64,000 bases of DNA from the NCBI GenBank assembly GCA_022702935.2, contig JAKIML020000070.1:1-64000 (forward strand). The letters run 5' to 3'. This DNA comes from Bacillota bacterium. Lineage in GTDB: Bacteria > Bacillota > Clostridia > DSM-8532. The position numbers and the translations under genes were made by a program. Positions 9,138-64,000 of this stretch are shown piece by piece; the stretch's first letter is position 1, and each line of letters begins with the position of its first letter. The notes beneath the pieces are model-generated. The model searched no databases, was not told the DNA's origin, and saw only the letters and a list, made by a program, of their open reading frames with translations.

Positions 9138-10379
9138 TTAGGACTGGGTGGACTGCTGCGCGTCCTCGGCCCCTGGGGCGGTGTCGGGCTGAGCCTGCTC
9201 CAGGGTTTGCTTTTTACCGGTTGCAGCCTCCTGTTGAGCCTCCGAAAGCTCAAAGGCATTGGCTGCCTCGGTCTGGCGAACCCGCTTTTCAGGATCAGGA
9301 ACCGCCATCTCGCTTAAGTTACGGGCTCCCGTTATACCAAACATGACAAGGATGATCAAAAGGATTAAGGAAGGCAGAAGTCCTTTATCCACCAGAACAA
9401 TGGAAAAGAGGCCCAGGGCACCGCTGACAATATACAGGATGACCACCGACATTCTGTGGCTGATGCCCATGTCCAGAAGCCGATGATGAATATGACCCCT
9501 GTCGGCCTCCCCAATAGGCCTTCCGCCTGCAATTCTGCGGATAATGGCAAAGGCCGTGTCAAAGATGGGAAGTCCCAGTACCAGAATGGGAATGGCAATG
9601 GACAAGGCTGTAACCGACTTCATGGTGCCTTCAATGGAAAGGATGGCCAGCACAAAGCCCAAAAAGGTTGAGCCCGTATCCCCCATAAAGATCTTGGCGG
9701 GGTTAAAGTTATAGGGCAGGAATCCGAATACGGCACCCACCAGTGAAACCGCAATGATGGCCACATCATCCTGCTTGCGGATGACGGCCACAATATAAAG
9801 GGAAATGGCTGCAATGCCCGATACACCGGCAGCCAGACCATCCAGGCCGTCAATAAGGTTAATGGCATTGGTAATGCCCACAATCCAGAGCACCGAAACC
9901 ACAAAGGCCAGAATGTCACCCAAAATATACATCATATTGGGATGGGTGGCCACTGTGGCCTGGAAGGGCTTGGAGATGGCAACAATCCTGGTGCCTGTGG
10001 CAACCACAATAATGGCCGCCAGAAGCTGAATCGGGAATTTGACCCTTGCCCGCAAAGGCCTGATATCATCAATGATGCCAAGCACAATGATAATGAGTAC
10101 ACCCAATATCATACCCAGGGCTTTGGGCTGTGAGAGATAGGATAAAAACTCCTTGGAGTCTCTGACTGAAAAGCTGTAAACCACTGCAATGAGAAATCCC
10201 ACAATGATAGCCAGACCGCCCATCAGGGCCATGGGCTTTTTGTGCACCCGCCTGTTATCCTTGGGTACATTGATGGCACCCGAATTAAAGGCTATTCTCC
10301 TGGCAACAGGGGTCGCAAAAAAAGCGACAATCAAAGCTACCGCACAAGCCACCAAGTGATGATATTCTATGATAATCAT
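9138..10379 (-). CDS. Undecaprenyl-phosphate GlcNAc-1-P transferase (TagO/WecA type)
   Basis: Polytopic membrane enzyme of the MraY/WecA family that transfers GlcNAc-1-P to undecaprenyl phosphate. About ten hydrophobic segments are evident. Conserved cytoplasmic motifs include DDIRPL near residue 104, NAINLIDGLDGLAAG near 171, the catalytic FMGDTGS near 230, and the C-terminal cytoplasmic HIHHRLLDMG loop near 298. It has a hydrophilic tail of about 55 residues rich in Gln, Glu and Ala that is not part of the catalytic core. GAGGTG lies upstream of the ATG. It is followed by wecB and preceded 2 bases away by the dCMP deaminase gene. Confidence 0.9.
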   Translation of the reverse strand: MIIIEYHHLVACAVALIVAFFATPVARRIAFNSGAINVPKDNRRVHKKPMALMGGLAIIVGFLIAVVYSFSVRDSKEFLSYLSQPKALGMILGVLIIIVLGIIDDIRPLRARVKFPIQLLAAIIVVATGTRIVAISKPFQATVATHPNMMYILGDILAFVVSVLWIVGITNAINLIDGLDGLAAGVSGIAAISLYIVAVIRKQDDVAIIAVSLVGAVFGFLPYNFNPAKIFMGDTGSTFLGFVLAILSIEGTMKSVTALSIAIPILVLGLPIFDTAFAIIRRIAGGRPIGEADRGHIHHRLLDMGISHRMSVVILYIVSGALGLFSIVLVDKGLLPSLILLIILVMFGITGARNLSEMAVPDPEKRVRQTEAANAFELSEAQQEAATGKKQTLEQAQPDTAPGAEDAQQSTQS

Positions 10380-10381
10380 GC

Positions 10382-10864
10382 TTACACCTCGGATCCACTA
10401 AAGAAGCTCCCCTCAATCTGAGGACCCTCATACTTGAGGACACGAACCCCGGCTTCCTTGAGAAGCTCCATAGCCAGCTCATCCGGGTAGTCTCCTCTGA
10501 AAACAATCTTTGTAATTCCGGCGTTAATGGCTAATTTTGCGCAGAGCACACAGGGCTGGGTGGTTACATAGAGGGTACCATCCTTGACGCTTATGCCCGA
10601 GTAGGCCGCCTGGGCGATGGCATTTTGCTCAGCATGGGTGGCTCTGCAAATTTCATGGCGTTGTCCCGAGGGTACCTTGAGCTCCTCCCGGATACAACCT
10701 AAGTCCAGACAATGCTTGCAGCCTACTGGTGCACCATTATAGCCTGTAGCCAGAATACGTTTATCCTTCACGATCAAGGCCCCTACCTGCCTGCGCAGAC
10801 AGGTAGAGCGCGTCTTAACCAACTCGACAATACTCATAAAGTATTCATCCCAAGACGGACGCAT
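10382..10864 (-). CDS. dCMP deaminase (ComEB family)
   Basis: Zinc enzyme converting dCMP to dUMP for thymidylate synthesis. The catalytic HAEQNAI motif is near residue 80 and the PCVLC zinc motif near 105. The N-terminal MRPSWDEYFMSIVELV matches the family start, so the ATG at 10864, with GGGGG 7 bases upstream, is preferred over the ATG at 10882 that has no ribosome binding site. About 160 residues, normal. It follows upp and precedes the TagO-type gene, forming a tight minus-strand run. Confidence 0.9.
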   Translation of the reverse strand: MRPSWDEYFMSIVELVKTRSTCLRRQVGALIVKDKRILATGYNGAPVGCKHCLDLGCIREELKVPSGQRHEICRATHAEQNAIAQAAYSGISVKDGTLYVTTQPCVLCAKLAINAGITKIVFRGDYPDELAMELLKEAGVRVLKYEGPQIEGSFFSGSEV

Positions 10865-10899
10865 ACAAGGACCCCCATTCATCTTTTAACGGCACTTTC

Positions 10900-11529
10900 C
10901 TATTTTGTACCGAAAAGTCTGTCCCCCGCATCTCCCAGACCGGGAACAATGTATCCGATATCATTTAAGCATTCATCCACGGCTGCACAATAGATGCCAA
11001 CATCGGGATGCTCGGAGTTGAGTCTTTCAACACCCTGCTTTGAAGCTATGAGGCAGACAAACTTAATATTCTTGGCACCATAACGCTTTAAGAACTTGAC
11101 AGCGTCACAGGCCGAACCACCGGTAGCCAGCATGGGATCAAGCACCACCACATCGCGCTCGCTGATGTCCTCGGGCAGCTTGCAGTAGTATTCCACCGGT
11201 TCTAAGGTATCATGATCTCGGTATAACCCGATATGTCCCACTCTTGCCATGGGAACAAGCTTCAGCATACCGTCAACCATGCCCAGACCTGCTCTCAGAA
11301 TGGGAACGAAGGCCAGCTTTTTCCCTGAGATAATCTTGGTTTTTGCCAACCCCACCGGTGTCTCAATCTCAACTTCCTTCAAAGGAATGTCCCGGGTCAC
11401 CTCATAGCCCATCAGCATGGCAATCTCGGACACCAGTTCACGAAATTCCTTGCTGCTGGTGTTCTTATCCCGAAGAAGCGACACCTTGTGCTGAATTAGT
11501 GGGTGATCAAAAACAAAAACTCCGCTCAT
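10900..11529 (-). CDS. upp: Uracil phosphoribosyltransferase
   Basis: Salvage enzyme making UMP from uracil and PRPP. The PRPP-binding loop is visible as [11 protein letters not shown] near residue 132-142, and the C-terminal uracil-binding region [16 protein letters not shown] closes the protein. 209 residues, the standard size. GGGAGGG precedes the ATG. The order tsaC-ywlE-rpiB-upp recalls the B. subtilis ywlC-ywlE-ywlF-...-upp region, though glyA is absent here. Confidence 0.97.
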
Positions 11530-11550
11530 TATAAAAGCCCTCCCGATTTG

Positions 11551-12003
11551 TCATTTTAAATATTCATTTTCTATTTTGGTAATGGCGTCAATGCGCCGCT
11601 GATGCCTTTCGTCATGGGAAAATTCAGTCCCCAGCCAGGTGTCCACAATGGCATGGGCCAGTTTCTCCCCGACAATAAAGGCGCCCAGAGCCAAGACATT
11701 GGTATCGTTATGTTCCCTTGTCAGTCTGGCTGATAGTAAATCACTGCAAAGTGCCGCCCGAATTCCCCTGACCTTATTGGCCGCAATGGATATGCCTATT
11801 CCGGTGGAGCAAATCAGTATGCCTCTCTCGCATTCCTGCTTGCTCACGGCCAATGCTGCTTTTAAAGCAAAGGTCGGGTAATCCACCGAGCTCTCATCGT
11901 AGGTTCCATAGTCCACGACCTCATGACCCTGTTCTATGAGATGTGCTTTAATACTCTCTTTGAGTCTGTATCCGCCGTGGTCACTTCCCAAAGCTATTTT
12001 CAA
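11551..12003 (-). CDS. rpiB: Ribose-5-phosphate isomerase B
   Basis: Interconverts ribose 5-phosphate and ribulose 5-phosphate. Conserved LGSDHGGYRLKE at the N-terminus and ICSTGIGISIAANKVRGIRAAL near residue 64 (split signature with the catalytic Cys) identify RpiB/LacAB. The start is taken as TTG at 12003, giving the canonical MKIALGSDHGG, because AAGGAAG lies 6 bases upstream; the ATG codons at 12024 and 12027 have no ribosome binding site. About 150 residues, normal. It lies between a protein phosphatase gene and upp. Confidence 0.93.
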   Translation of the reverse strand: MKIALGSDHGGYRLKESIKAHLIEQGHEVVDYGTYDESSVDYPTFALKAALAVSKQECERGILICSTGIGISIAANKVRGIRAALCSDLLSARLTREHNDTNVLALGAFIVGEKLAHAIVDTWLGTEFSHDERHQRRIDAITKIENEYLK

Positions 12004-12054
12004 GACACTCTTCCTTTCTTTCATCATTGATTTTATAGTAATCGTACCCCAATG

Positions 12055-12534
12055 TCAAAACGAAATATCCTGGGTCTTAAGTTTTTCAAACAGATCCAGA
12101 ATACAGGCTTCAATATCATAGGAGCAATCCTTGTAGACTTCTTCACCAAAGCCAAAGGGATCGATGATGTCGGCATTCTCGCCCTGTGCATATTCCTTGA
12201 GGGTAAAGACCTTATCCGCGCCTTCGGGATAGATATCCAGGATCATTTCCTTATGATGCCGGGTCATGGTCAATATGAGCCAGCTCCCCCGGATATCCTG
12301 AATGTCCAGAACCCTGGCTCTGTGGGATTTTAAGCTGATGCCAAACTCCTGCTCCATGACGGCTCTGGCCTCCTGGCTTGCCGGATCTCCTTCAAAGGCA
12401 TAAACACCGGCTGAGGCCCCCTCGAAGGACGCCTTAAGCTCCTCCCTTTCGTTGAGCATATGGTTGAAAAACGCCTCGGCCATGGGACTTCGGCAGGTAT
12501 TGCCGGTACAGACAAAGGTTATCCTTTTTTTCAT
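12055..12534 (-). CDS. YwlE-type low molecular weight protein phosphatase
   Basis: Low molecular weight phosphatase with the P-loop CTGNTCRS near residue 8. In this subfamily the Thr following CTGN marks protein-arginine phosphatases such as B. subtilis YwlE, whereas tyrosine phosphatases usually have Ile or Leu there; the arginine specificity is an inference. The general-acid region reads IIDPFGFGEEVY near residue 128. The ATG at 12534 has AAAGGA 9 bases upstream and is preferred to 12552, which overlaps the tsaC stop. No McsB kinase gene is in the window. Confidence 0.85.
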   Translation of the reverse strand: MKKRITFVCTGNTCRSPMAEAFFNHMLNEREELKASFEGASAGVYAFEGDPASQEARAVMEQEFGISLKSHRARVLDIQDIRGSWLILTMTRHHKEMILDIYPEGADKVFTLKEYAQGENADIIDPFGFGEEVYKDCSYDIEACILDLFEKLKTQDISF

Positions 12535-14979: not shown

Positions 14980-15024
14980 ATATTTCGTTCCATTAGATGT
15001 CTGTCTAATTTTGTGAGGTGGGTT

Positions 15025-16427
15025 ATGAAAAAATACCTTATGAAAAGCAAGCTCTTGCTGGCTGTTACCTTGCTACTCAACGTCATCCATGCCGTGGCGG
15101 CCGTATTTATAGCAAGATTCCTTCAGCAGATCATTGATGCGGCCATGAATGGTGATATGTCTGCATTTCTCAGGGTCCTTGTCACTTCTGTTATCTATCT
15201 TGTCCTATTGGGGTGTCTGAGCTATGCCTACTCCTTGAGCAGTAAAAAACTGATCCGAAATCTGACCATCATGCTGCGGCAAAAAGCCTTTCAGGGCATA
15301 CTCCGCAGAAACACCCCCGACTTTGGCAGTGTGAATACCTCGGACTACATCTCAGCCTTCACTAATGATATCAACTTAATTGAAGCAAACTATATCGCGC
15401 CTTTGCTGCTGATAGTGCAGTACGGAGTGATTTTCATTGTCTCTCTCATCCTGCTTTTTGAGATTAACCCGCTGATCACTTTAATCCTTGCAGGTTGTGT
15501 CATTTTCATGCTCCTGATTCCCGGCCTTTTGGGAAAGTCCCTGCAGACAAGGCAGGATATGCTCTCGAAGCAATTATCCCTGTTTACTAGAAAGCTGTTG
15601 AAAATGTGCCCAAAATCGGAAGCATTAAGCCCGTCATTGATCGCATCAACCAGTTTGCTGAATATACTGATACATCCTTTGCCGGAAGCTTGACGCCTTC
15701 CTTTGAAAACAATATTGAAATCCGTGATCTGGCCTTTTCCTATGAGGCCGATCGTCCCGTTCTTGCCAATACCAATATCGTCTTACATAAGAACAAGAAA
15801 TACGCCATTGTGGGACAGAGCGGATGCGGCAAATCAACACTTGTCAGGCTCCTGTGCGGAAACTATCCGCTCTATGACGGAAGTATTCTATACGACGGCA
15901 CTGAACTTAAGGCGCTTGACATTGATAAGCTGCAGAGCATGATCTCCGTAATCCATCAGAATATCTATATGTTTGACGACAGTATCCAGCAGAACATTGA
16001 ACTCTGCAATACCTTCAGCCAGGAAGAAATGGAAGGTGCGCTTAAAGCAAGCGGTGTTTTGCAATTCCTTGACAAGATGCCCCATGGCATAAAGTCACAG
16101 GTGGGAGAAAACGGGGCAAATCTCTCGGGCGGGCAGCGCCAGCGCATTGCCGTGGCAAGAGCGCTGATCCGCAAGAAGCCCATTCTCATACTGGATGAGG
16201 GTACATCCTCCGTTGACAGGCAGACGGCTTACGATATTGAAAGCAGGCTGCTTAATATGAACAACCTCACCCTGATTACCATTACCCATCATCTTAATGA
16301 AGAGCTGTTGAGCCGCTATGATCAGATTATCTACATGGAAAACGGCACCATTTTGGAGACAGGTCGTTTCGAGGAGTTGCTCTTAAGACAGGCCAGGTTT
16401 TTTGAATTCTATAACCTTAAGAAATGA
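15025..16427 (+). pseudogene. ABC exporter (fused TMD-ATPase), broken by internal deletion and frameshift
   Basis: One ABC exporter half-transporter gene now split in two frames. The first frame (15025-15693) encodes a normal N-terminal membrane domain with four hydrophobic segments, through the cytoplasmic loop TRQDMLSKQLSLFT, then turns to unrelated sequence. The second frame (opens 15606, ends 16427) begins in the linker VPKIGSIKPVIDRINQF and runs through a complete ATPase domain: Walker A GQSGCGKST, signature LSGGQRQR, Walker B ILILDEGTSS, H-loop ITHH. The segment with the fifth and sixth membrane helices, roughly 100 residues, is missing at about 15595-15606. Ribosome binding site GAGGTGG precedes the ATG at 15025. 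A separate functional ATPase fragment is possible but unlikely. Confidence 0.8.
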
Positions 16428-25104: not shown

Positions 25105-27153
25105 TTAAGCGCCCAATCTGAAGATGATGGTTTCAAGCATCTGGTTAACCACGTCGATAACCTTGGAATTAGCATTATAGGCGTATTTAAACTTGATCAT
25201 ATTGGTCATTTCCTCATCCAGGGAGACCCCCATAATGCTCTGGCGCATGGCATCGGCCTGCTGAACCAGAAGCTGATAGCTTTCCATCATGCCCGCGGCC
25301 TCATTGCCCTTGTTGCCCACATCCATAATGAGGTTCTGATAATAGGTATCCAGACTCAAGACCTTATTATTTCCGGTCATAAGCTCGGCATTGCGCAGGT
25401 TGGCAATGGCCAGGGCAATGGTATTGTCCCCGTTGGCATCTATGGTGGATGCGGCGATATAGTTCACATCCTTTAAGGCGTCGTTCACCTTAATATTGCC
25501 CATCTGAATGGGCATGGTAGAATTAGCGGCCTCAAAGAAGAGGCCCCCGTCCGCGCCCGTCAGGGTTTTCCCCGACAGATGCAGATAGTTGATTTCCCTT
25601 GCCATAATATTGATAAGCGCATTCAACTGCCGTTTCACCGAGGAGATGATGTTCAGGTTGTCGGGTACGGTGGACATTTTCATGTTCACATCCCCGTTGA
25701 TGTCCTTGGAGATTTGCTCCATCAGCCCTTTGTAGTCGGCAGTTCCGATATCATAGAGCTTACCGCCTGTCTGTTCGGCAAAAAAGCCCCAGCCTGCCTC
25801 GCCCGCATTGCCCTGATCATGATAGATGGGGTTGGTGGCGATGGAAACCGTCATACCAAGCTTCTTCAGGGTATTGAGATATTGGGTCGTATCATCACTG
25901 TCGGTGGTGGTCTCATCCCCATCAAGGCTCTCATTGGTAAAGACCATCAAGTATTTATTCACATCTTTGCCGTAGCTGTTGCTGTTGACGGCATTGATAA
26001 CATCGGCAAAATTATTGCTGTTGCCCGCATCGGGGGTATCGGGAATGGCACTGCACAGGGCAGCGGCATCCCTGCCGTAATTCACATTGGTCACAGCCCC
26101 CGACCCGCCAAAGAGAACCAGCCTCAGATTATAGTTGAGGCCTCTTTTTTCAAGATCCTTGGCCAGAGCCTCCACCTGATCCTTAACATTGGCCAGATAG
26201 GACGCACTGGTATCGGAGATATCCACGGCAATGGTCACATCGGCCGTGGTATTGGGAGAGCCATTGTCATAGCTGTCCTTGGCGCCATTGACCTCGCCCC
26301 TGGCCTCCAACAGGCCCTTGATAATCCCCTGGCCTACGTCAATATCAATATTTCCGTTGGGATCATACAGCTTGGGCGTATAGAAATGGGAATACTCCCC
26401 GTTGGGCTCAGCCACAAGGTTGGTGGATCTGCCCTTGCTGACTAAGTAATAGCCATCCAGAAGCACATCCATGCTCCCCTCCTGGGTATACCAGGTCTCG
26501 CACTTCACGAGCTTGGAAAGCTGGTCCACCAGATAATTTCTCTGATCCAGATAGTCGTTGGGCGAGTTGCCCGCTGCCACTGCACTCATGATATCCACAT
26601 TGAGTTTGGCAATCTTCTGGGTGATGGTATTGACCTCATCGATTTTAAGTTTAATTTCGTTGTTCAGATCACTCTGAAGCTTATCGATCTGGCTTCCCAC
26701 ATGATTGAGGTAATTGGCCAGAGAATCGGCCCGCTGCTTAACAAGGGCACGAATGGTGAGGCTCTCAGGGGCCTTGCTGAGCTCCTGGAAGGAATCCCAG
26801 AAGTTATTCATAGCCACCTGGAAGCCCTGCTTCATGGGCTCCCCTAAAATGCTCTCCAAATCGGTAACGGCCTTGTACCGGCTTTCCCAATAACCCAGGG
26901 CATTGCTCTCAGTCCGGAATATATTATCGTTAAAGATATGGCGGATCTGGCGGATTTCCTGGACATCACAGCCCATCTCCACCACCCAGTTATTGCCGTA
27001 ACTGCGTGTTGCAGCAGAGGCCATAATGGCACTTTGGCGTGAGAATCCGGGAGTTCCCAGGTTGGAAACATTATGACCGGTAACCTCCAGCGCCTTCTGG
27101 TTGGCAAATAAGCCTGACAACGCCGTATCCAATCCAAAAAAACTGATGGACAT
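25105..27153 (-). CDS. FlgK-type hook-associated protein with inserted vWA-like domain
   Basis: A 682-residue FlgK paralogue. Residues 1-290 are FlgK-like (TGHNVSNLGTPGFSRQ near 25; helical core; GIIKGLLEARGEVNG near 276), and residues 500-682 resume FlgK (INIMAREINYLHLSG; VSLDEEMTNMIKFKYAYNANSKVIDVVNQMLETII). Between them, about residues 304-485, is an alpha/beta domain resembling von Willebrand factor A: TIAVDISDTS gives a partial MIDAS (D311, S313, Thr at the fifth position), then LRLVLFGG and YLMVFTNES strands, with Asn where the metal-binding Asp of the third loop is expected. AGGAGG lies upstream of the ATG. It precedes normal flgK, so the cell may build a junction with two FlgK types or a modified one. 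Confidence 0.85.
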   Translation of the reverse strand: MSISFFGLDTALSGLFANQKALEVTGHNVSNLGTPGFSRQSAIMASAATRSYGNNWVVEMGCDVQEIRQIRHIFNDNIFRTESNALGYWESRYKAVTDLESILGEPMKQGFQVAMNNFWDSFQELSKAPESLTIRALVKQRADSLANYLNHVGSQIDKLQSDLNNEIKLKIDEVNTITQKIAKLNVDIMSAVAAGNSPNDYLDQRNYLVDQLSKLVKCETWYTQEGSMDVLLDGYYLVSKGRSTNLVAEPNGEYSHFYTPKLYDPNGNIDIDVGQGIIKGLLEARGEVNGAKDSYDNGSPNTTADVTIAVDISDTSASYLANVKDQVEALAKDLEKRGLNYNLRLVLFGGSGAVTNVNYGRDAAALCSAIPDTPDAGNSNNFADVINAVNSNSYGKDVNKYLMVFTNESLDGDETTTDSDDTTQYLNTLKKLGMTVSIATNPIYHDQGNAGEAGWGFFAEQTGGKLYDIGTADYKGLMEQISKDINGDVNMKMSTVPDNLNIISSVKRQLNALINIMAREINYLHLSGKTLTGADGGLFFEAANSTMPIQMGNIKVNDALKDVNYIAASTIDANGDNTIALAIANLRNAELMTGNNKVLSLDTYYQNLIMDVGNKGNEAAGMMESYQLLVQQADAMRQSIMGVSLDEEMTNMIKFKYAYNANSKVIDVVNQMLETIIFRLGA

Positions 27154-54462: not shown

Positions 54463-55461
54463 TTACGGCCGGCAGTGGGTACAGGGATAATAGCCGTTTT
54501 GGGCCGCTTCATAGGCGTCGGTGAAATAGATCAGGGTATCGGATAAAAAGGTCGGATCCGTACTTATTACAGAATCAAAGTATTCACAGTCGGTTCGGCA
54601 ATACCAGAGACGGCTCTGATAGCTATAGCCCATCAAGGGCTCCTTTCTGATGATCCTGGCCCCACCCAGGGCATAGTGCTCATAGCGCCTTCCCATTAGG
54701 ACGGGAAAGCCCTGTGCAAAGGCCAGCATACCCTCATCGGTGAGTGCCCGCCTCCAATCGGCCTCATCAATGGCAGGAAAGTGAAAGCTGATAGAAAGGC
54801 TTCGTTGAAAGGCCCATTGATCATATTGGGCCATGTAATTCTCCATGGAGTTCTCAATGGAGCTTCTTACGGCTGCCAGCCTGAGATTCTCAAACATCCG
54901 GGCATCATTAAAAAAAGGTATGAAGGAAGCCAATTCCTGATAGGTTCCCTCATAGAGCTTTTGGTCAATCCGGTCATAGGCATAGACCGTATCCCCCAGG
55001 GTATAGCGCATCACATACCGATCAAGGAGGGTCTCACCCACATAATGCGCCTGAGGAAACCAGCCGTGGGAGATCTGAGTTTGCCCGTCAGCGTTTTTAA
55101 AGGCATGTAATGCGTAAAGGGTATAGCCATCATGCTGGAGAAAGAGAAGCACCGGAACGCAGGCCTCCACCCTTGCCTTTTGGACGTCACTCTGGGCGTT
55201 GAAGGCCACATAGAGGCTGTCAAAAAAGGTTTGGACCGCCATGGTTCTGGATAGTTCCAAATCGGTGCTGGCACTATAGGAGAGCCCCTGGCTATATTGC
55301 GTCATGGTCTGGGCCGCGTCCATGATGGCATTATCCACCACGGTGTCATAGTAATCGCGGAGCTTTAAATCCTCCCTGACCAGTCGGGTCTGCTGGGACA
55401 TAATAAACAAAAAGGGACACATGATCAAAGCCGCAAGGATGGCAAGGCTAGTCAGCTTCAT
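54463..55461 (-). CDS. Single-pass membrane protein of the Tad-like locus (332 residues)
   Basis: Not recognised beyond its architecture. An N-terminal hydrophobic segment (SLAILAALIMCPFLFIMS) is followed by a long extracytoplasmic domain; there is no typical prepilin cleavage site (G/A before a Phe or Glu at +5). The domain begins with helical LKLRDYYDTVVDNAIMDAAQTMTQY, similar in style to TadE/TadF minor pilins, and ends with cysteines (CRTDC near 290; PCTHC at the C-terminus) that could form disulfides. Overlaps the preceding gene by 14 bases, so translation is likely coupled. Last gene of the operon. Confidence 0.7.
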   Translation of the reverse strand: MKLTSLAILAALIMCPFLFIMSQQTRLVREDLKLRDYYDTVVDNAIMDAAQTMTQYSQGLSYSASTDLELSRTMAVQTFFDSLYVAFNAQSDVQKARVEACVPVLLFLQHDGYTLYALHAFKNADGQTQISHGWFPQAHYVGETLLDRYVMRYTLGDTVYAYDRIDQKLYEGTYQELASFIPFFNDARMFENLRLAAVRSSIENSMENYMAQYDQWAFQRSLSISFHFPAIDEADWRRALTDEGMLAFAQGFPVLMGRRYEHYALGGARIIRKEPLMGYSYQSRLWYCRTDCEYFDSVISTDPTFLSDTLIYFTDAYEAAQNGYYPCTHCRP

Positions 55462-56002
55462 TTCTCACCATCCCCCCTGCGCGCACAAAAATGGTGGGTG
55501 TCTGGGAATCGGAAAACAGGATCATATCCCGTAAGGACGCCGCCATGGTCTTTCCCTTATTCCTGACCTCTACAAACAACAGGTCCCCTGCACTCATGAC
55601 ATAATACCGCCTTTTGTCAAGGGCTGACAGACCTGAGCCCGGCGGAAAAAGCACTTGAAGAATATCGGCTTCATGGGTGCCCCGTCGGATGATATCATAC
55701 TCCCCCGTGAAGGTAAGCACACCACCCATCTCCTTATATACAGGGATGACCGAACGATGGATATGGGAGATTTTAATCTCATAGAAATTGCCCGTGGCGT
55801 TCAACCGATCAAGGAATTCCGAGTACATATTGGGGGTGATATAGCCCGTATCCCTGCAGGCATCCACAAAGCGATTGCATTCGGCCAACACCACGCTGTA
55901 GGCAATATCGTCCTGCCTGTCCAGCAGGCTCATCATGGGTGCCAGGAAGAGCAGAAAGGCACAGAGAAGAAAGGCTAAAACCTTCCAAAGGACATTTTCC
56001 AT
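55448..56002 (-). CDS. Single-pass membrane protein of the Tad-like locus (184 residues)
   Basis: N-terminal membrane segment (VLWKVLAFLLCAFLLFLAPMMSLL) followed by an extracytoplasmic part with SVVLAECNRFVDACRDTGYITPNMYSEFLDRLNATGNFYEI, a pattern seen in clostridial Tad-locus minor pilin-like proteins, though I cannot name a family. AAGGAG precedes the ATG. It overlaps the next gene and shares its transcript. Probably a minor pilin or assembly component. Confidence 0.7.
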   Translation of the reverse strand: MENVLWKVLAFLLCAFLLFLAPMMSLLDRQDDIAYSVVLAECNRFVDACRDTGYITPNMYSEFLDRLNATGNFYEIKISHIHRSVIPVYKEMGGVLTFTGEYDIIRRGTHEADILQVLFPPGSGLSALDKRRYYVMSAGDLLFVEVRNKGKTMAASLRDMILFSDSQTPTIFVRAGGMVRNEAD

Positions 56003-56011
56003 AAAGACTCC

Positions 56012-56470
56012 TTAAGGACTACCGGTATAATTCAGCACAAGAACCCGCCCTTGATTATCGGTCTCATGGGTGCATTGAAAAACCGTCCCGGGGACAAGGC
56101 TTTCCAGGTCGACCTCCTCGGCCCTGATGCCATTGACCCGGATTTCCACCTGAATTGCATCAGTACCCATGGCGGCCGGTGTGGGAGAAAGATCATTAAA
56201 AACTTGGGATACGGCATAGAGGTCCGACAGCATCCGGGCCTCCTGTCGCTCCTTGGCCTTAAGAACCTGAAAAACCACTTCCTCATAGGTTACGCCCTGG
56301 CTCATGCCCACCTTTTCCAGGGAGACCAGCTTGTCCTCTTGAACCAGGTGCTCATGGCCTGCGATATAGCGCTGAAATTCCTCATAATGGCTGAAGAACA
56401 AGGACAGGGCTATGAGGCACAGTATAAGACCCGTTCCCAGGTATAACGCCTTTTCCAGATTTTTGTTCAT
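56012..56470 (-). CDS. Single-pass membrane protein of the Tad-like locus (152 residues)
   Basis: N-terminus NLEKALYLGTGLILCLIALSLFF is hydrophobic, and its NLxKAL start is shared with the upstream protein (56473-57051), suggesting the two are paralogues. The rest (about 115 residues) is hydrophilic and presumably outside the membrane. No prepilin peptidase site is evident. GGAA lies upstream of the ATG; the preceding gene ends 2 bases away. Confidence 0.7.
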   Translation of the reverse strand: MNKNLEKALYLGTGLILCLIALSLFFSHYEEFQRYIAGHEHLVQEDKLVSLEKVGMSQGVTYEEVVFQVLKAKERQEARMLSDLYAVSQVFNDLSPTPAAMGTDAIQVEIRVNGIRAEEVDLESLVPGTVFQCTHETDNQGRVLVLNYTGSP

Positions 56471-56472
56471 GG

Positions 56473-57051
56473 CTATTCCAATTGGGCAAAGATGATGCCC
56501 CGAATGACCTGATTGGTGTCATAAATCAGATGGGCCCTGAAATTCCCCGAGGGATTAATATAAAGGGACGGAAGATTGGGGTTCTCTGCATCCCTTCTTG
56601 CCGCATTCTGAACTGACTTGCTCACCGTGCTCAGCAGATTGCCGCTGCCGCCTGACAGGATGATGTTTCGGTCACTGACAGACAGGGACCCTGTTGTACT
56701 GGAGATATAGGCGTTGTAACTGGAAAGGCTCAAACCCGTATTGGTATCGGGGTTGAGATTGGTAGAACGTCCTGAGTTCTTGCCCAGAGGAGCAACAAAT
56801 ATAATGATTTCACCGCTTCTGTCCGTATAGTAATCCAGTGCGGCCAGCACATCCCCTCCGGTTACTTCCTTTCCATTGAACTTGCTGAATTCACTCTCCA
56901 GCATCCCCTGAGCCACCGAGCCAATACGCTCGTTGCCCGCAGCGGCCACATCCTTCATACCGCCAAAAATACTGAGGCCGATAGTGACCACGGCAATAAA
57001 AAGCAAGATGGAGACACCAATCCAAAGCGCTTTTGACAAATTGCCATCCAT
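56473..57051 (-). CDS. Pilin-like single-pass membrane protein of the Tad-like locus (192 residues)
   Basis: N-terminus NLSKALWIGVSILLFIAVVTIGLSIFGGM is hydrophobic, followed by a Ser/Asn/Gly-rich extracytoplasmic domain (GLSLSSYNAYISSTTGSLSVSDRNI). The shared NLxKAL start with the next gene suggests a common origin. Could be the main surface subunit. There is no Flp-type GxxxxE cleavage motif. GGAGGA precedes the ATG. Confidence 0.7.
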   Translation of the reverse strand: MDGNLSKALWIGVSILLFIAVVTIGLSIFGGMKDVAAAGNERIGSVAQGMLESEFSKFNGKEVTGGDVLAALDYYTDRSGEIIIFVAPLGKNSGRSTNLNPDTNTGLSLSSYNAYISSTTGSLSVSDRNIILSGGSGNLLSTVSKSVQNAARRDAENPNLPSLYINPSGNFRAHLIYDTNQVIRGIIFAQLE

Positions 57052-57096
57052 ATACTGATCCTCCTTTTCAGGTTGATAAAACTGGACTTTGAACCA

Positions 57097-59127
57097 CTAG
57101 AATTGTGAAAGCTGTTTATAAAAAGCCGAAAGGCTTTCCAAGCCCGTAACAATCATAGGAATAATCAGATAAAGCACCATTAAGGCATAGAGCGGAAGAA
57201 AGCCAATCATATTGCCCAAATTCTTTCGTTTCTCCACAATCCGCTCATTGCTCTCTTTTCGTGATTGGCTGTTGAAGGCCATCTCGTTTTCCAGCTCCTC
57301 AAAGGCCCTGGCCACCCCCAAGTCCTCACAGGCTAACTGAAGATTGTCCACAAGGCTGATAAAGGGCGGAAAAGCCACATCCTCCTTAAGCTCCTCCAAG
57401 GCCTTGGACTGTCCCGAACTGAAATTGGACAGGCATTTTTGCAGGGGGTCCTTAAAATGTACCGAAAAAGTCTCCATCCACTCCAAGATCTCCTCCACAT
57501 GTACACGATTCATATGCATGAGCATGAGAATAATGGTCTGGAACTGGGAGATCTCCTCCTCCATATCAATTTTGCGGACCCTGGCCAAAAACATCAGATT
57601 CCAGATTGGAATGGTATAACCCACACCAAAAAAGGCAAAGCAAATGATAAGATGCCACCACCAGAAGATATTGGATCGCAGGGCGTTGAGCTTGCCCCGG
57701 ATTCTTTCCACCGCGACCTTGGCCTCAGCACTGTCCAGAACGCCATTCTGACTCACCGCCTCATAAATCTCTGCTTCACTGGCGTCAGACCTGAGTTTTT
57801 CAATGACCATGCGATCAGCATCAGCAATAGCCTGGAGCTTGGCATATTCTTCCTCGGACAGTTTTCCTCCCAAAAAGCCCTGGGGCATTTGGGGCATGTA
57901 CAGGATGGCATGGCGGGAATAGGCATTGAGCCCCAGAATCAGCCCCAGACTCAGAAAGAAGCATGCCACACCATAGATAAGCCGTCGCGCACACAGGGTA
58001 TAGCAATTAAGCGGAGCCATGGCGCTCTTTATCAGCTCGGTAAGCCTGTTATATTCACGGGTGTACCCGGGAGGCACCAGGCGGTCAACCAGCCTGTAAA
58101 GTCCGGCCGAATAAAGCCTTTGCTCCAGCGTTTTGCCGCCTAATCCTCCCCTTGTCCCCTTCTCGAAGCACTGCAGCCTTCGCAGGGTCATATAGGCGCC
58201 TATGGTAATGATGAGGGTAAAGATGGCCAGAACAATGCCCAGTTTACTGGCATAAAAGCTTTCAAGGGGAGTAAAGCTTTCACAGGCCCAGTTCTTCAGA
58301 GGTTTTATGCAAAACAGCGGAACCAAAGCAATGAAATTAAGGCTTTTAAGGGCGTATTTGAGCTTCTCCCGTTTATAGATCTCAGCCTTGATCTCATTTC
58401 CTAAATAGGCCATACAGCGTACAAAGACCGAGCCCCCCTGAATCTGGGTATCCCCATATTCCTTGGTAATGTAGAGGATACCGGCCAGCATCTTAAGATA
58501 TTTGTTGGGTGCCGTTTCATAATAGCGCTCCAGCTCGGTCTCCATGTCCGAGGCGGTCAGTATATCATTGATCCGTTCGGCCTGGGTATAAATCTCAAAG
58601 CTTCCTTTTTGATTGAGCAAATCACAGGCTTCATAATTGGCATCCTCCACCGACTTCTGCTCATAGTATTTGTGGCGCAGGACCTCCAGATAGTAAACCT
58701 GCTGTTTAAGGAGCCTTGTTTGAAGGTTATGGATGAAGATCTCCACAGCGGTATCGCCAATGAAGGACAGAAGACCGGCAAAGAGGATGAACAAAAAGAT
58801 ATCTCTGGTGATGAACCAGAAGGCCATCAAAAGTCCAAGAAAGACGGACAATGTTATGATAAGCAGGCTCACAGCCCGCTTTCGCAGGACCTTTTCGTCC
58901 GAATCGCTATATACCTCCAGCCTTTTGCGTATTTTCAGGAGAAGACTGCGCAAAACGGGAATGTTCAGAATCTTGCCGTAGAGACTGATGGCCAGGGTCG
59001 AACCAAGACGGCTGTTGTCCTTAAGATTTCTTGCGGCGGACTGCTTTTTTGTCAGCCTGACAGCCAACAGGCACAGGAAAACGGCAAGGGTCAGGCACCC
59101 TATTCCTATCCATCCATATGCCTTCAT
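57097..59127 (-). CDS. Long TadB-TadC-like inner membrane platform protein
   Basis: 676 residues with about seven or eight hydrophobic segments: near 5-23, 86-124 (a pair), 260-275, 293-312, 383-405, 497-525 and 645-665. The C-terminal half has a type II secretion F-domain pattern (FQTIILMLMHMNRVHVEEILEWMETFSVHFKDPL; FEELENEMAF). The N-terminal half shows a comparable layout of two membrane segments, a cytoplasmic helical domain and two further segments. In most Tad loci TadB and TadC are separate, about 300 residues each, so this looks like a fusion or an unusually long single platform. GGTGGTG precedes the ATG; it directly follows the ATPase gene. Confidence 0.75.
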   Translation of the reverse strand: MKAYGWIGIGCLTLAVFLCLLAVRLTKKQSAARNLKDNSRLGSTLAISLYGKILNIPVLRSLLLKIRKRLEVYSDSDEKVLRKRAVSLLIITLSVFLGLLMAFWFITRDIFLFILFAGLLSFIGDTAVEIFIHNLQTRLLKQQVYYLEVLRHKYYEQKSVEDANYEACDLLNQKGSFEIYTQAERINDILTASDMETELERYYETAPNKYLKMLAGILYITKEYGDTQIQGGSVFVRCMAYLGNEIKAEIYKREKLKYALKSLNFIALVPLFCIKPLKNWACESFTPLESFYASKLGIVLAIFTLIITIGAYMTLRRLQCFEKGTRGGLGGKTLEQRLYSAGLYRLVDRLVPPGYTREYNRLTELIKSAMAPLNCYTLCARRLIYGVACFFLSLGLILGLNAYSRHAILYMPQMPQGFLGGKLSEEEYAKLQAIADADRMVIEKLRSDASEAEIYEAVSQNGVLDSAEAKVAVERIRGKLNALRSNIFWWWHLIICFAFFGVGYTIPIWNLMFLARVRKIDMEEEISQFQTIILMLMHMNRVHVEEILEWMETFSVHFKDPLQKCLSNFSSGQSKALEELKEDVAFPPFISLVDNLQLACEDLGVARAFEELENEMAFNSQSRKESNERIVEKRKNLGNMIGFLPLYALMVLYLIIPMIVTGLESLSAFYKQLSQF

Positions 59128-60990
59128 TCACACCACCTGCCTGCCAAAGAACTTTTCCAGATAGGCCTCAAAGGCTTTAGCATCGGTATGGGTCATGGCC
59201 TGCTTCATCTTTCGTACCCGCTCCTCACTGATGGGGTTCACCGCTACATAGCTGCCATCCTTAAATTCAATGATATTGCGGGTTTCAAAAGTCTTTCTGT
59301 CAGTCATGCGCCGATAGTATTCCGCCGAGGTCTCCATAAAGGAGGCAGCCCGCTCCGGGAGTGTGTCCTTATCAAGATAATCCGTAGGATAGGGAAGCTC
59401 GGGCGCGGGCACAATCTCAGTAATTCGTTCAATATAGCGCTTTCCCCGATAATCCCTGGTCAGGTGAATATCAAAATCCAGCACCGAAACCACCTGCTGC
59501 TCGGCAATCTTCTCATTGTTAAACATCTCGCACTTTAAAAGGGAGTTGCGCAAAGAATAGATGAGATCCCGGGTTGTCTTGGCATGATGGGTAAACAGTG
59601 TAAACAGGGAGGCCACCTGTGCCATTTGTATCATCCAGGCTGCAACAGGATCGGTGGCCACCTCACCGAGAATATTGACGCTTCCGTCGGTTTTCTTTTG
59701 GATATCCAGCCCCTGCTGCCCCGATATATTCTCTGTCTCCTTAAAGGTCAGAATGTTCCGGTGAGGATACAGACTTCTTAAGTTCAGCTCGAAGGCCATC
59801 TCCTGGATTCTTAAGGTCAGGGAGGCGTAAATATGCCCTATCATGGCCATGAGCAAAGTAGTTTTCCCGCTTCCCTGCTGTCCGGTAATGGCAGTAATCA
59901 TGCCGCCCTTGGCCAGGTATTTGATGAGGTTGACAGGCAGCTCAGCCTGAGGGTCCTGAATCAGCGTTTCCAGGGTGACATTCTTAATATGAAACTTTCG
60001 GACAAAGAAGGCCCAGGATTCCGAAAAAGGCGGGCGCACCACCAGAATACGGCTGCCATCCTTCATTTCGTTAACCCTGTACCCCGTATTCTCAGAAAGT
60101 TGACCGCCGCGGTTATACCGGTAGATAATTTGGCAGACTCTTCTCAGCTCCTGTTCATTTTCAAAGCCCAAAAAGTCCAGCTTTATGGATTTTCCTTTGA
60201 AGAATATCCAAACACTTTCATAATTTCGTTCCATGCGCCGAATCTTTTCCTGCAGTCCCTGAATGTTCTTGGCCATAAAATCATGTGTGATGCCCGACAC
60301 CCCCGCCGATACCCCGTCAATGTTCATATCCCGGATTTCATCAATGACACCCAGGCCCTTATATCGTTCATAGACAAGCTGGGTAATGATCTCAAGGCGT
60401 TCCTCCTTGGACAGGATAAAGCCTTCCTTCTCATAAATGGCATCAATCTCTTCCTTGGTGATAACAAAGGCCTGTTCATTCTCTGAAATGGGCTTAAGCT
60501 CGTCCAAATGGTAGGTCTCAATAAGATGGGTCAGGGCGTCAAAGCCATGGTCTTTTTTCAGCATGTGCAGGATAATGGCAAACTTATCTCTGGTGCTTAG
60601 AAGATACGGGTTGTGAAAGGGAATAATGCTGTTGATACGTTCACTGGGAATATAGGACAATAAAATATCATAGATAAAGGCTTTGACAAACTGCTTATCC
60701 TCAATGGAGCCATGCATGCAGCTTTTTAAAGCCTTTTTGAGCTCGGCACGCTTATTGGCCTGCTTCTTAAACTCCACTTCGTTGAGGCCCAGCTCATAGA
60801 GATTGGTTCGGGTAATAGCATTGATGCAGTCCTTGACATGCTCAATAAGACCGGGGACTGTGAACCTTTGCGGATCCTCCTCCTGCTCCCGATTTGATGG
60901 ATACCTTCTGGCCCTGAGAAAAAAGTACAGGAAGGTGACCAGGGCCAATATGATGATGAGAATAATGAGCAGATTCAAAAATGCTGGCAC
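59128..60990 (-). CDS. TadA/CpaF-type secretion ATPase with N-terminal membrane anchor
   Basis: 620-residue motor ATPase of the type II/IV secretion superfamily. Walker A GQQGSGKTT near residue 370, Walker B region NILGEVATDPVAAW near 436-450 and FTHHAKT near 464. Unusually, residues 5-25 (LNLLIILIIILALVTFLYFF) form a membrane segment; typical TadA proteins are cytosolic. Starts at GTG (60990), overlapping the stop of the preceding gene, with GAGGGGTG upstream at long spacing. Powers assembly through the TadB-TadC-like platform that follows. Confidence 0.85.
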   Translation of the reverse strand: MPAFLNLLIILIIILALVTFLYFFLRARRYPSNREQEEDPQRFTVPGLIEHVKDCINAITRTNLYELGLNEVEFKKQANKRAELKKALKSCMHGSIEDKQFVKAFIYDILLSYIPSERINSIIPFHNPYLLSTRDKFAIILHMLKKDHGFDALTHLIETYHLDELKPISENEQAFVITKEEIDAIYEKEGFILSKEERLEIITQLVYERYKGLGVIDEIRDMNIDGVSAGVSGITHDFMAKNIQGLQEKIRRMERNYESVWIFFKGKSIKLDFLGFENEQELRRVCQIIYRYNRGGQLSENTGYRVNEMKDGSRILVVRPPFSESWAFFVRKFHIKNVTLETLIQDPQAELPVNLIKYLAKGGMITAITGQQGSGKTTLLMAMIGHIYASLTLRIQEMAFELNLRSLYPHRNILTFKETENISGQQGLDIQKKTDGSVNILGEVATDPVAAWMIQMAQVASLFTLFTHHAKTTRDLIYSLRNSLLKCEMFNNEKIAEQQVVSVLDFDIHLTRDYRGKRYIERITEIVPAPELPYPTDYLDKDTLPERAASFMETSAEYYRRMTDRKTFETRNIIEFKDGSYVAVNPISEERVRKMKQAMTHTDAKAFEAYLEKFFGRQVV

Positions 60991-61794
60991 TTACTGCGCA
61001 CACCCCTCAAGCACAAAATCACATAATTGCCCCAGGCAGTCCAGAAACTCCCGCTCCTCTCCCCGCCGGGCATTATGGTAATAAGCCACGAAATCAAAGG
61101 CCCTGCCCTGATTGAGGGCATCGGCAAAACGCACATTATTAGGCAGTACAAACACAGACTTGGGATTCAGTCCGTAGCTTCGGGCGAGATTGCCCCTGGT
61201 GGCCGAAGCCTGTTTTTCGTATCGGGTCAGTACATAGGCACAGCGTTTCTCTTTAATCACCCGATTGTTCTCCATGAGACTTTGAAAATCATCCAGAAGA
61301 AACCGATTCTGGTTCATGCAAAAGACAATGATATCCGAGCCTTCAAGAATGCTTCGGCTCAATGTCTCTGTCAATCCGCTGTGCACATCAATAAGCACTA
61401 AATCATAGAACTGGCGGGCACTCTCAAAAATATCGAGCAAAAGTTCCTTGTCCTCATCACCGGGCCGCTCCTTCTTGGCGGTGCCCACCAGGATATCCAG
61501 TCGATGGTTCTTAAGCAGCGAATAAGTATAGTCGGTGATCATCTCAGGTCTCAGCCTTCCATTACGCACAAGCCGTACGAGGGCATCCATGCCTTGATTG
61601 CTGAAGCTGGGCAAGGTCTGTTCAAGCTGTCCCGTCTGCTTGAAAAAATAGCCCTCCAGAGCACTTCGCTCAAAATGGTTGTGCGCCACTAGGGTTTTGT
61701 AGGCGGTTTTTTGTGCTATCATGGAGGCCAGTGCTGCTGTGGTAGCACTGGTGGCAGCCTGGCCATGCATGTTGGACCAAAGCGCTATTTGCAT
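60991..61794 (-). CDS. TadZ/CpaE-like ParA-fold protein with no P-loop
   Basis: 267 residues with a ParA/MinD-like fold: IALWSNMHG..., then FYDLVLIDVHSGLTETLSRSILEGSDIIVFCMNQN near 128-162. Where an active enzyme has KGGxGKT, this has MHGQAATSATT, so ATP hydrolysis is unlikely. TadZ proteins place Tad machines at the cell pole and often have degenerate nucleotide sites. AAAGGATG precedes the ATG. Directly upstream of the TadA-like gene. Confidence 0.75.
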   Translation of the reverse strand: MQIALWSNMHGQAATSATTAALASMIAQKTAYKTLVAHNHFERSALEGYFFKQTGQLEQTLPSFSNQGMDALVRLVRNGRLRPEMITDYTYSLLKNHRLDILVGTAKKERPGDEDKELLLDIFESARQFYDLVLIDVHSGLTETLSRSILEGSDIIVFCMNQNRFLLDDFQSLMENNRVIKEKRCAYVLTRYEKQASATRGNLARSYGLNPKSVFVLPNNVRFADALNQGRAFDFVAYYHNARRGEEREFLDCLGQLCDFVLEGCAQ

Positions 61795-61795
61795 C

Positions 61796-62446
61796 CTATT
61801 TCATCCTTTCGGCCTTCTTGATAAGGCTTTTGATCACCTTGGCATCAAGCTGGAAAAGACGCTGAATCAACTCCCGAAGCGCTGCTTTATAGGATGGTGT
61901 CAGTGTTTTTATTAAAAGCCGGTCAGAAAACTGGGTTTCCAGCATGGCTGCCTGATTGGATTCCTCAAAGTACAAGGGATAGCTCTCCTCCAGCTTTGTG
62001 AAGCTTGGAACGCTTCTTTCCCAGAAGAGATCCAGATACCGTTTATTGACCTTGCTAAACTCCAACAGGTTTAAGTAGATGATCTTAATCTCCAGAGTGG
62101 GATGAACCCAGGAGAAAGCTCCCGCCAATTTTACACACTGCTCCAGATAATGGCGGGATGGTTCACAAAGGGCAACAGCTTGAAATCCCTCGGCAAGAGG
62201 AAGATATTCCTCCAGGTCAAGCAGGTTGTAATCCTCGGGCTTAAGCGCCTGATCCAGCCCCTCCTCCTTGTTGAATTGATGGATTTCAACACCGCAGTAA
62301 TCGTAGACCGTGTCAGTGATGTCCCCATAATGATAGGGAACTGTTGAAAATATCCGCGTCCTGTGATGTGCCATGAGAATCTTAGCCATGGTCAGGATGA
62401 AAAATCGCTTGGCTTCTGTACTTGTCCCTAAAAAAGCAATGGTCAT
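61796..62446 (-). CDS. Second TadZ-like protein with degenerate nucleotide site
   Basis: 216 residues from the ATG at 62446, which has AGGAGGA upstream; the frame to 62539 overlaps the preceding gene and is not needed. Begins MTIAFLGTSTEAKRFFIL, in the position of the ParA P-loop but without Lys-Thr. The rest is alpha/beta-like (NLLDLEEYLPLAEGFQAVALCEPSR) with no recognised domain. Lies between the SAF protein and the other TadZ-like gene, 1 base from the latter. Confidence 0.65.
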   Translation of the reverse strand: MTIAFLGTSTEAKRFFILTMAKILMAHHRTRIFSTVPYHYGDITDTVYDYCGVEIHQFNKEEGLDQALKPEDYNLLDLEEYLPLAEGFQAVALCEPSRHYLEQCVKLAGAFSWVHPTLEIKIIYLNLLEFSKVNKRYLDLFWERSVPSFTKLEESYPLYFEESNQAAMLETQFSDRLLIKTLTPSYKAALRELIQRLFQLDAKVIKSLIKKAERMK

Positions 62447-62456
62447 ACCCTTCCTC

Positions 62457-63434
62457 CTATAGTCTTCCATCCAAATCTCCGGCAACATAGGTCTGCTCAT
62501 TGCCAGAGTCCTGAGCGTTTTGCGCTGGGGCTGCGTCATTGGCAGGGGGAGGCGTCGGCGCTGTCGGTGTAATCACCGTGGTATCCTTTCCATAGACTCT
62601 GCGTAAGCCAAAGTTCTCCCTATCTTCGTTAATCTTTTCCTCCAGCATTCTTCTGTTTCTCATTTCAAGCTCTGTAATGGCTTTGGTGACTATATTGGGA
62701 TCCTGAAGGATGAGGTTCATGACCTCACTGTTGGTAGGGTAAGTGATAATGGCCTCCTTCTGAATATCAGGAGCTACATAGGGCAGGGCATAGAGATAGG
62801 CATTGTCAACGATGCTCGCGTCCACAATAGCGCTGGACATTCTTAAGATTTCCTCCTCATTGGCCTGAATCCACAGAATCCCCGGCTGATTGTCGATGGG
62901 TTTCTCCAGATCTGTAACCTGCTTCTTGGATAGAACGATATAGTCCATACCGTTGGGGAACATAATGCGGATGTCTATGTACTGCCGTGGTTCCAGCTTT
63001 TGTGGCAGATTTATCACCGTATACTCCATAAGTCTTAAGTCATCAGGGTAATTGCCCTGGTCATACAGAAGGGAATGGGTCACAGCCGTGGAGGTAGTGA
63101 CATCACACCGCAGAACCTTTCCTATAGCCTGTCCCAGATCCACCACTGCATCCTCAGGGATATAGATACTGCGGATCTCGGCAGGCATAAGGTCGCTGTC
63201 CGAAATGACCGTCCCCGACTTCAGTGCTTTGGAGGCAACATACACGATACCCGTCGGATTAGCCTCCAGATATGCTTCAATGGCCTTGGCCTCAATCTCG
63301 GATTTTTCCGACAGGGTTATCCATGTTCTTTCAGAGCCAAACAAGACGATGGCCGCCCCCAGGAGAACAACACAAAGCAGAATACCCAGAATAAAGCCCT
63401 TAAGTGTACGGTAACGCTGCGGACGAAGAATCAT
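62457..63434 (-). CDS. CpaB/RcpC-type SAF-domain protein
   Basis: 325 residues from the ATG at 63434, which has AAGGAGG upstream. One N-terminal membrane segment (GFILGILLCVVLLGAAIVLF), then a SAF domain around 60-125 (ASKALKSGTVISDSDLMPAEIRSIYIPEDAV; GKVLRCDVTTSTAV), a helical segment near 250, and a Pro/Ala-rich tail. CpaB proteins help form the secretion channel or wall passage in Tad systems. Follows a ParA-like gene, overlapping none. Confidence 0.8.
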   Translation of the reverse strand: MILRPQRYRTLKGFILGILLCVVLLGAAIVLFGSERTWITLSEKSEIEAKAIEAYLEANPTGIVYVASKALKSGTVISDSDLMPAEIRSIYIPEDAVVDLGQAIGKVLRCDVTTSTAVTHSLLYDQGNYPDDLRLMEYTVINLPQKLEPRQYIDIRIMFPNGMDYIVLSKKQVTDLEKPIDNQPGILWIQANEEEILRMSSAIVDASIVDNAYLYALPYVAPDIQKEAIITYPTNSEVMNLILQDPNIVTKAITELEMRNRRMLEEKINEDRENFGLRRVYGKDTTVITPTAPTPPPANDAAPAQNAQDSGNEQTYVAGDLDGRL

Positions 63435-63453
63435 GCTAGACCTCCTTGTATAC

Positions 63454-64000
63454 TCATAAACGTACATGATGCCCGTTATAGGCAAAGACCTGTTTCATAG
63501 CTTGTCGGATTTGATGCTCGTCCTCCCTGGACAGGGTGAAGGGTGTACGAAAGGATGGGAATAAAACCAAAGGCGTTATGGGAACAAACTGTTTGATGGT
63601 CAAGAACTCATGCTTATGCGCACCGTAGAGTACATACACCCATTCATCCCGGTTGAAGGATTCAAAGCGCTCCTGAAAGCTCAGAATACTATCCAGCTTC
63701 CAGGGGGCATTGGGGCATAAAATCATTTTAATGTTGCCATGATTCAATTCCCGAAGAAGCCTTTCATGCCTAAGCTCTCCTAAGTCAAGCAGGATGATGT
63801 CCAATCCCTTCTTAGACAGCATCCCGCTGTCCTGGACCTCGGTGAAAAAGGTAATTCCCTCGGCTTCAAAGAAGTCATCCCCCATGGTCTTAATCTTTCC
63901 GGCCTGATGCAAGGCATCTTTCAGCCGATTAAGATCCCCGCTGGGATTGACTTCAGCCAGGGCCGTGCGATAGCCCTGCCGTTTGAAGAATAAAGCCAGC
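63454..64000 (-). CDS. ParA/CpaE-like protein (cut by window edge)
   Basis: The visible 182 residues are the C-terminal part of a ParA-fold protein: FFKRQGYRTALAEVNPSGDLNRL then LDIILLDLGELRHERLLRE and DEWVYVLYG. The region holding any P-loop lies beyond base 64000, so activity cannot be judged. The frame remains open to the edge. It is the first visible gene of the Tad-like operon. Confidence 0.7.
   Translation of the reverse strand, partial: LALFFKRQGYRTALAEVNPSGDLNRLKDALHQAGKIKTMGDDFFEAEGITFFTEVQDSGMLSKKGLDIILLDLGELRHERLLRELNHGNIKMILCPNAPWKLDSILSFQERFESFNRDEWVYVLYGAHKHEFLTIKQFVPITPLVLFPSFRTPFTLSREDEHQIRQAMKQVFAYNGHHVRL

Follow-up and report, generated by a model that had tools for sequence, protein, structure and literature searches.

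A Conserved Tad-Like Operon With Candidate Subunits Lacking a Prepilin Signal in Clostridia and Bacilli

Gene Content of the Operon

At the end of the first 64,000 bases (positions 1–64000 of G000:C131, hereafter the window) of a 75,871-base contig from a Bacillota bacterium of the class Clostridia lies a run of ten close-set genes, all on the minus strand, that resembles part of a Tad pilus locus. At the sequence level, these genes form a conserved unit made of a CpaF-type motor, a fused platform protein, ParA folds, a SAF protein and four single-pass membrane proteins that carry no class III (prepilin) signal. According to open reading frame (ORF) calls on the window and the rest of the contig, the run ends at 54463 and its first gene crosses the window edge, starting at contig position 64887. 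An earlier reading made from the letters of the window alone (the sequence-only reading) had described a compact minus-strand run here, and every ORF was recovered where it had been placed, tightly packed. The kinase gene that opens the operon had been out of its view. Genes upstream of the kinase gene are unrelated to the operon, which is composed as follows (kinase-ParA, SAF/CpaB, z, Z, A, BC, s1, s2, s3, s4):

63454–64000, on to contig position 64887 (L008:3454-4887), minus strand: gene 1, in the window its C-terminal part; Ser/Thr kinase and ParA-like fusion of 477 residues as a whole (PknB-type profile, kinase motifs)
62457–63434, minus strand: gene 2, SAF-domain CpaB/RcpC-like protein with one N-terminal membrane segment (profile matches)
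61796–62446, minus strand: gene 3 (z), short ParA/MinD-like protein without a P-loop (alignment, profile against solved structures)
60991–61794, minus strand: gene 4 (Z), TadZ-like ParA-family protein with a degenerate P-loop (alignment, profile against solved structures)
59128–60990, minus strand: gene 5 (A), TadA/CpaF-type ATPase of 620 residues with an N-terminal extension and an intact Walker A motif (profiles, tree)
57097–59127, minus strand: gene 6 (BC), platform protein of 676 residues, putative TadB-TadC fusion (profile-profile comparison)
56473–57051, minus strand: gene 7 (s1), single-pass protein with an NLSKAL start, candidate main subunit (alignment, AlphaFold2 model)
56012–56470, minus strand: gene 8 (s2), single-pass protein with an NLEKAL start (ORF, signal-pattern scan)
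55448–56002, minus strand: gene 9 (s3), well-conserved single-pass protein (alignment; weak DUF4320 likeness in two relatives)
54463–55461, minus strand: gene 10 (s4), single-pass protein of 332 residues with a C-terminal Ada-like zinc module at residues 274–332 (profile, AlphaFold2 model, structure search)

The SAF gene probably starts at 63434, its longest ORF running from 63485, and the start of z is placed at 62446 by aligned relatives (longest ORF from 62539). Promoter and terminator scans gave values close to those for shuffled sequence. The clustering is far above chance: 79 of 85 long loci from Clostridia and Bacilli keep the full order SAF-z-Z-A-BC-s1/s2-s3-s4, and a kinase gene was found in 28 of the long loci.

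Motor ATPase and Platform Protein

The Walker A motif of the ATPase (GxxGxGKTT) is intact and invariant in the alignment. Its best match among solved structures is CpaF (E=2e-26), followed by VirB11 (6e-8) and FlaI (1e-7). A TadA-type ATPase had been claimed from the sequence, and these results bear it out, with the reservation that the score against the curated TadA model TIGR03819 (38.6 bits) lies far below its cut-off of 373.

The BC protein gave no Pfam match. In hhalign comparisons, its residues 68–302 pair with the separate TadB proteins of intermediate relatives (probability 97.4%) and residues 356–621 with their separate TadC proteins (97.5%), and BC is therefore read as a TadB-TadC fusion; the TadB of another split-platform relative matches T2SSF with E=7e-5, just under the cut-off. 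The sequence-only reading had rightly seen likeness to TadB and TadC in this long membrane protein but missed its fused nature. The operon accordingly contains the assembly ATPase and GspF/PilC/TadB-type platform that characterize the type IV filament superfamily, as well as the two paralogous platform proteins of Tad pili, here as one polypeptide.

Kinase, SAF and ParA-Like Proteins

The kinase domain of gene 1 is of the PknB type (E=5e-44) with conserved RDLKPSN and DFG motifs, and the ParA-like tail of this protein resembles both z and Z by hhalign. Both Z and z are of the ParA/MinD type by profile comparison with solved structures, through weak matches (best E 0.004 and 8e-5), and the P-loop lysines are absent from their alignments. 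A ParA fold is supported for z, Z and the kinase tail; solved TadZ was not among the matches. The prediction of two TadZ-like proteins without a P-loop was thus correct as to the missing lysines and incomplete as to number, as there are three ParA-like domains, the third fused to the kinase. The CpaB-type SAF protein that had also been predicted is upheld by matches to Pfam SAF (E=8e-6) and to TIGR03177 CpaB (E=2e-5, under its curated cut-off).

Four Single-Pass Proteins Without a Class III Signal

As noticed beforehand, the operon ends in four single-pass proteins, and two of them, s1 and s2, share an N-L-x-K-A-L start. We searched their families for the class III signal, defined as G, A or S, four uncharged residues, D or E, and then at least 12 uncharged residues, a pattern that caught Flp, TadE and type IV pilus (T4P) pilins alike in control loci. 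It was found in none of 86 s3 and none of 20 s2 sequences, and in only 3 of 158 for s1 and 2 of 91 for s4; these few matches are off-position: they come from fragments or lie where the membrane segment has already begun.

Neither Pfam nor NCBIfam assigns any of the four proteins to a family, the Ada-like zinc module of s4 excepted, and weak matches occur in a few relatives only (DUF4320 in two for s3, DUF5411 in one for s4). A TadE/TadF identity was rejected: there was no match in Pfam, NCBIfam or PHROGs, nor in a Pfam scan of every member of the s1, s3 and s4 alignments. Common ancestry among s1, s3 and s4 found no support by hhalign.

In AlphaFold2 models, s1 (pLDDT 78) has a helix at residues 3–56 followed by an alpha/beta head, and s4 (pLDDT 84) a helix at residues 2–57 plus a head domain. 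With N-terminal helices of 54–56 residues, the modeled s1 and s4 are built broadly as pilins are, and the resemblance goes no further than this arrangement. The structure search with s1 yielded no evidence for a new fold. The C-terminus of s4 resembles N-Ada as seen in its complex with DNA (Foldseek probability 0.99), with a VIA Z of 6.7 and an rmsd of 1.5 across 49 residues, and Ada_Zn_binding was detected in 10 of 30 s4 members (best E=7e-5); the module is degenerate in Bacilli members. Rows resembling inositol monophosphatase for the s4 model (Z under 8) were put aside as a common arrangement. Multiple s1-type genes stand in tandem in gut Clostridia, as expected for structural subunits.

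Distribution and Phylogeny

At least 554 relatives are present in GTDB contigs. Among the 80 that we kept are Thermoclostridium caenicola, Paenibacillus, Cohnella, Tumebacillus and numerous Clostridia from gut and rumen. In the order to which the window belongs, the ATPase is found in all 25 good genomes. Scores across the class are bimodal, canonical TadA lying at about 105–145 bits and the operon subfamily at 160 or above. In the ATPase tree, all fused-type proteins sit on one branch (SH-aLRT 100) and canonical clostridial TadA stands apart (96), with the ATPases of split-platform loci falling between the two; the deep order is not firm, because the search was quick and several branches are long. 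A clostridial variant of the Tad machine with its own surface subunits had been proposed: a divergent, compact Tad-like operon is indeed present, but it extends to Bacilli, plasmids and conjugative elements.

A phage origin was considered and dropped, as IMG/VR gave no relative and two phages gave only canonical-level matches. In one locus (L038, G008:C157), the ATPase gene stops early beside a serine recombinase gene and another piece lies on G008:C603, which looks like the insertion of a mobile element into the gene.

Mobile Elements and Neighboring Surface Proteins

Paenibacillaceae, Lysinibacillus and some other hosts carry the operon on large plasmids or conjugative elements. ATPase matches of at least 80% cover were found in 24 plasmid records, from Paenibacillus, Lysinibacillus, Alkalihalophilus, Thermobacillus, Butyrivibrio and other hosts, and s3 was found in 24 records. 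In P. alginolyticus and P. athensensis, it is embedded among ParA/ParB and conjugation genes; the Paenibacillus elements encode a relaxase (PF03432, E=2e-38), DUF3801/PcfB and a coupling protein (PF02534, E=2e-56), and that of P. athensensis also an integrase (PF00589, E=2e-25). A second copy type adjoins TcpC- and VirB4-type genes. Four ATPase matches occur in the P. athensensis genome (G315), and at least two of these neighbor conjugation genes that differ in type. The pBsph-like plasmids of L. sphaericus transfer by conjugation (PMC13239906), and the operon-bearing L. sphaericus plasmid may be one of them.

Directly after the operon, at least 20 of 30 Bacilli loci encode a giant DUF5704 protein together with an SLH or Cu-amine-oxidase-N protein. 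In Clostridia, a locus from the window's own family (L110) has DUF5704/SLH-type genes before the kinase, and another (L118) has them between s1 and s2. Across the class, fewer genomes have DUF5704 (8 of 293) than have the operon, and five of these eight genomes carry the operon, compared with 27 of 293 (P=2e-4, uncorrected for kinship). The genome of the window has no DUF5704 match, so DUF5704 is not a core part of the system. Read by eye, the DUF5704 proteins seen start with Sec-type signal sequences.

Pilin and Peptidase Genes in Carrier Genomes

The sequence-only reading had noted that a Flp pilin and a prepilin peptidase were missing and suggested looking for TadV and Flp genes past 64000. 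Neither is present in the operon, nor does either occur in the 11.9 kb from there to the contig end. Elsewhere, the host genome has a single Flp1-like gene (contig C101), a single detected peptidase, which is PilD-like and lies within a T4P locus, and a separate canonical TadA/TadB/TadC locus (contig C73). Co-occurrence of the operon and a canonical Tad locus in one genome is frequent, and in two genomes (G020, G029) the canonical locus lies about 9 kb from the operon.

Comparison With Known Systems

With Tad (type IVc, Flp) loci, the operon shares a CpaF/TadA ATPase, TadB and TadC (fused here), TadZ-like ParA proteins and a CpaB/RcpC SAF protein. Unlike them, it has no Flp pilin, no TadV, no TadE/TadF with a prepilin signal and no secretin, and it possesses a kinase-ParA fusion, a fused platform and an ATPase of 520–680 residues on a separate branch. 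Because Flp and TadV in the locus and class III pilins or pseudopilins (TadE, TadF) were all looked for and not found, we do not file it as a Tad pilus; we read it as a Tad-derived variant whose working mode is probably similar.

Gram-positive tad-like loci without prepilins ("no Flp_2"), with tadV and an ordinary TadA, have been described (Imam et al., 2011; PMC3244431). Compared by description only, these loci share with the operon their presence in Clostridia and the lack of a protein with a prepilin signal; they differ in having tadV and a TadA near other clostridial TadA, whereas the operon has no tadV and a distant TadA on its own branch. Closer in layout are the split-platform loci of Clostridia (G032, G056 and f21 genomes), whose genes for a SAF protein, TadZ, a long TadA and in some cases a kinase are ordered alike and precede those for small single-pass proteins. 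In these, TadB and TadC are separate genes, and the f21 locus adjoins a Flp-bearing Tad locus. Gram-positive conjugative type IV secretion systems (T4SS; Tn916/Tcp, VirB4-VirD4 type) share elements with the operon in Bacilli; the operon itself contains no VirB4, VirB6 or coupling protein and its ATPase is CpaF-type, VirB4 and the coupling protein being found near it only on Bacilli elements. The generic model of a large survey of type IV filaments requires a major pilin (PMC6668835). The literature searched, mostly without subscription papers (e.g., on the pBsph T4SS), contained no description of this architecture.

Possible Function of the Operon

On balance we lean toward a machine of Tad origin in which leaderless subunits are put together as a short, adhesive structure on the cell surface, the processing of pilin leaders having been lost. 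In such a machine, motor and platform would lift s1, s2 and the tandem s1-type copies from the membrane by their long N-terminal helix, uncleaved, and the product may be a short fiber or a pseudopilus. The s3 and s4 proteins would be minor or tip subunits, the zinc module of s4 possibly contacting a ligand, and the kinase-ParA fusion, where present, might control where and when assembly occurs. Copies on plasmids and conjugative elements could help cells adhere or bring donor and recipient into contact, acting with the SLH and DUF5704 surface proteins. A broader proposal, that a filament-type machine polymerizing uncleaved, leaderless subunits was repeatedly adopted by Gram-positive plasmids and integrative and conjugative elements (ICEs) for contact or adhesion, is a tentative one that we hold to be rather doubtful.

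Several results weigh against assembly of uncleaved subunits and a role in cell contact. A prepilin peptidase is encoded somewhere in 26 of 30 carrier genomes tested, as processing in trans would need. In one genome (G306), genes for an A24 prepilin peptidase (E=1e-8) and for a DUF6382-FHA protein (E=4e-29; L090:2022-4048) come after the operon, which is the only one with an adjoining peptidase among the relatives inspected. Residues 30–47 of the s1 helix are poorly modeled, and the s1 model had no credible match among solved structures and no pilin among further rows; since no solved pilin was matched, the pilin-like layout of s1 comes down to helix length. Finally, copies in the window's family are chromosomal and lack neighboring conjugation genes, which would leave no place for a mating role in these hosts.

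The same peptidase count is what one would expect if this were an ordinary Tad pilus whose Flp and peptidase are encoded elsewhere, the operon being the assembly part only. Processing of the subunits in trans is possible in principle, because the host has a T4P-locus peptidase and a Flp1-like gene elsewhere, and in B. breve the peptidase is encoded in another locus (PMC6916266). Yet the host's canonical Tad locus would use those Flp and peptidase genes, s1–s4 show no cleavage motif, and the inspected plasmid and ICE stretches hold the operon without Flp or peptidase, which makes this explanation distinctly improbable. Four of the 30 carrier genomes gave no peptidase match; most are drafts, and we set this aside as too weak a proof of independence. 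A Tad-derived system secreting soluble or cell-wall proteins such as the SLH and DUF5704 proteins, with s1–s4 forming a short pseudopilus and no adhesin, would account for the recurrent DUF5704 and SLH neighbors and for the enrichment of DUF5704 genomes among carriers. We consider it unlikely, though less so, given the lack of DUF5704 in the window genome and the Sec-type signals of these proteins, which would not need the operon's machine for export. The likeness of the s4 C-terminus to DNA-bound N-Ada, the repeated carriage by conjugative elements and the DNA uptake mediated by Tad pili in Micrococcus luteus (PMC6916266) could point to a DNA-handling device, for uptake or conjugative transfer, in which the zinc module touches DNA. 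Against it, the elements bring their own T4SS genes, the Bacilli members, the ones on conjugative elements, have a degenerate zinc module, and there are no DNA-transfer genes near the copies in the window's family; of the three alternatives, it seems to us very unlikely.

CGG Frameshifts and Other Genes of the Window

In gut and rumen Clostridia (groups f56, f37 and their relatives), the codon CGG seems to be a site of +1 frameshifting and to be read as glycine (C-GGN), at the following loci:

L091:8824-9999 + 7977-8870; L092:8193-10152 + 10176-12255; L093:8795-10730; also L154, L155, L168, L182 and L183

Across 42 loci, CGG occurs 38 times in 212,841 codons. It lies within 40 codons of a stop in 84% of cases (7–17% for eleven other codons), and the +1 frame is open for at least 50 codons at 23 of the 38 (about 2% or less for the eleven others). 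The shifted glycines lie in the TadA Walker A and GEV motifs, an Era-like KH motif and a HAD-type GDxxND motif. We had considered the split TadA genes of gut Clostridia to be pseudogenes, an explanation replaced by +1 shifts at CGG. CGG usage is normal in the window's family, and the passages of PMC8629427 consulted contain no description of such a shift.

Elsewhere in the window, the second of two tandem FlgK-like hook-associated proteins (25105–27153, 682 residues) has, by eye only, a seeming von Willebrand factor A-like insert (ADVTIAVDISDTSASYL...). An exporter-type ABC transporter at 15013–16427 is seemingly split into two overlapping frames (226 and 273 residues), a possible frameshift.

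Biological Significance

Cleavage of the leader by a prepilin peptidase counts among the steps that define type IV filaments. With a Tad-type motor and platform that are widespread and strictly conserved, and with leaderless candidate subunits, this rule could be put to a direct test, and the operon occurs in cultured bacteria (Thermoclostridium caenicola, Paenibacillus and Alkalihalophilus). To our knowledge, Gram-positive conjugative elements have no conjugative pili, and the carriage of the operon on conjugative plasmids and ICEs suggests how such elements could make cell contact.

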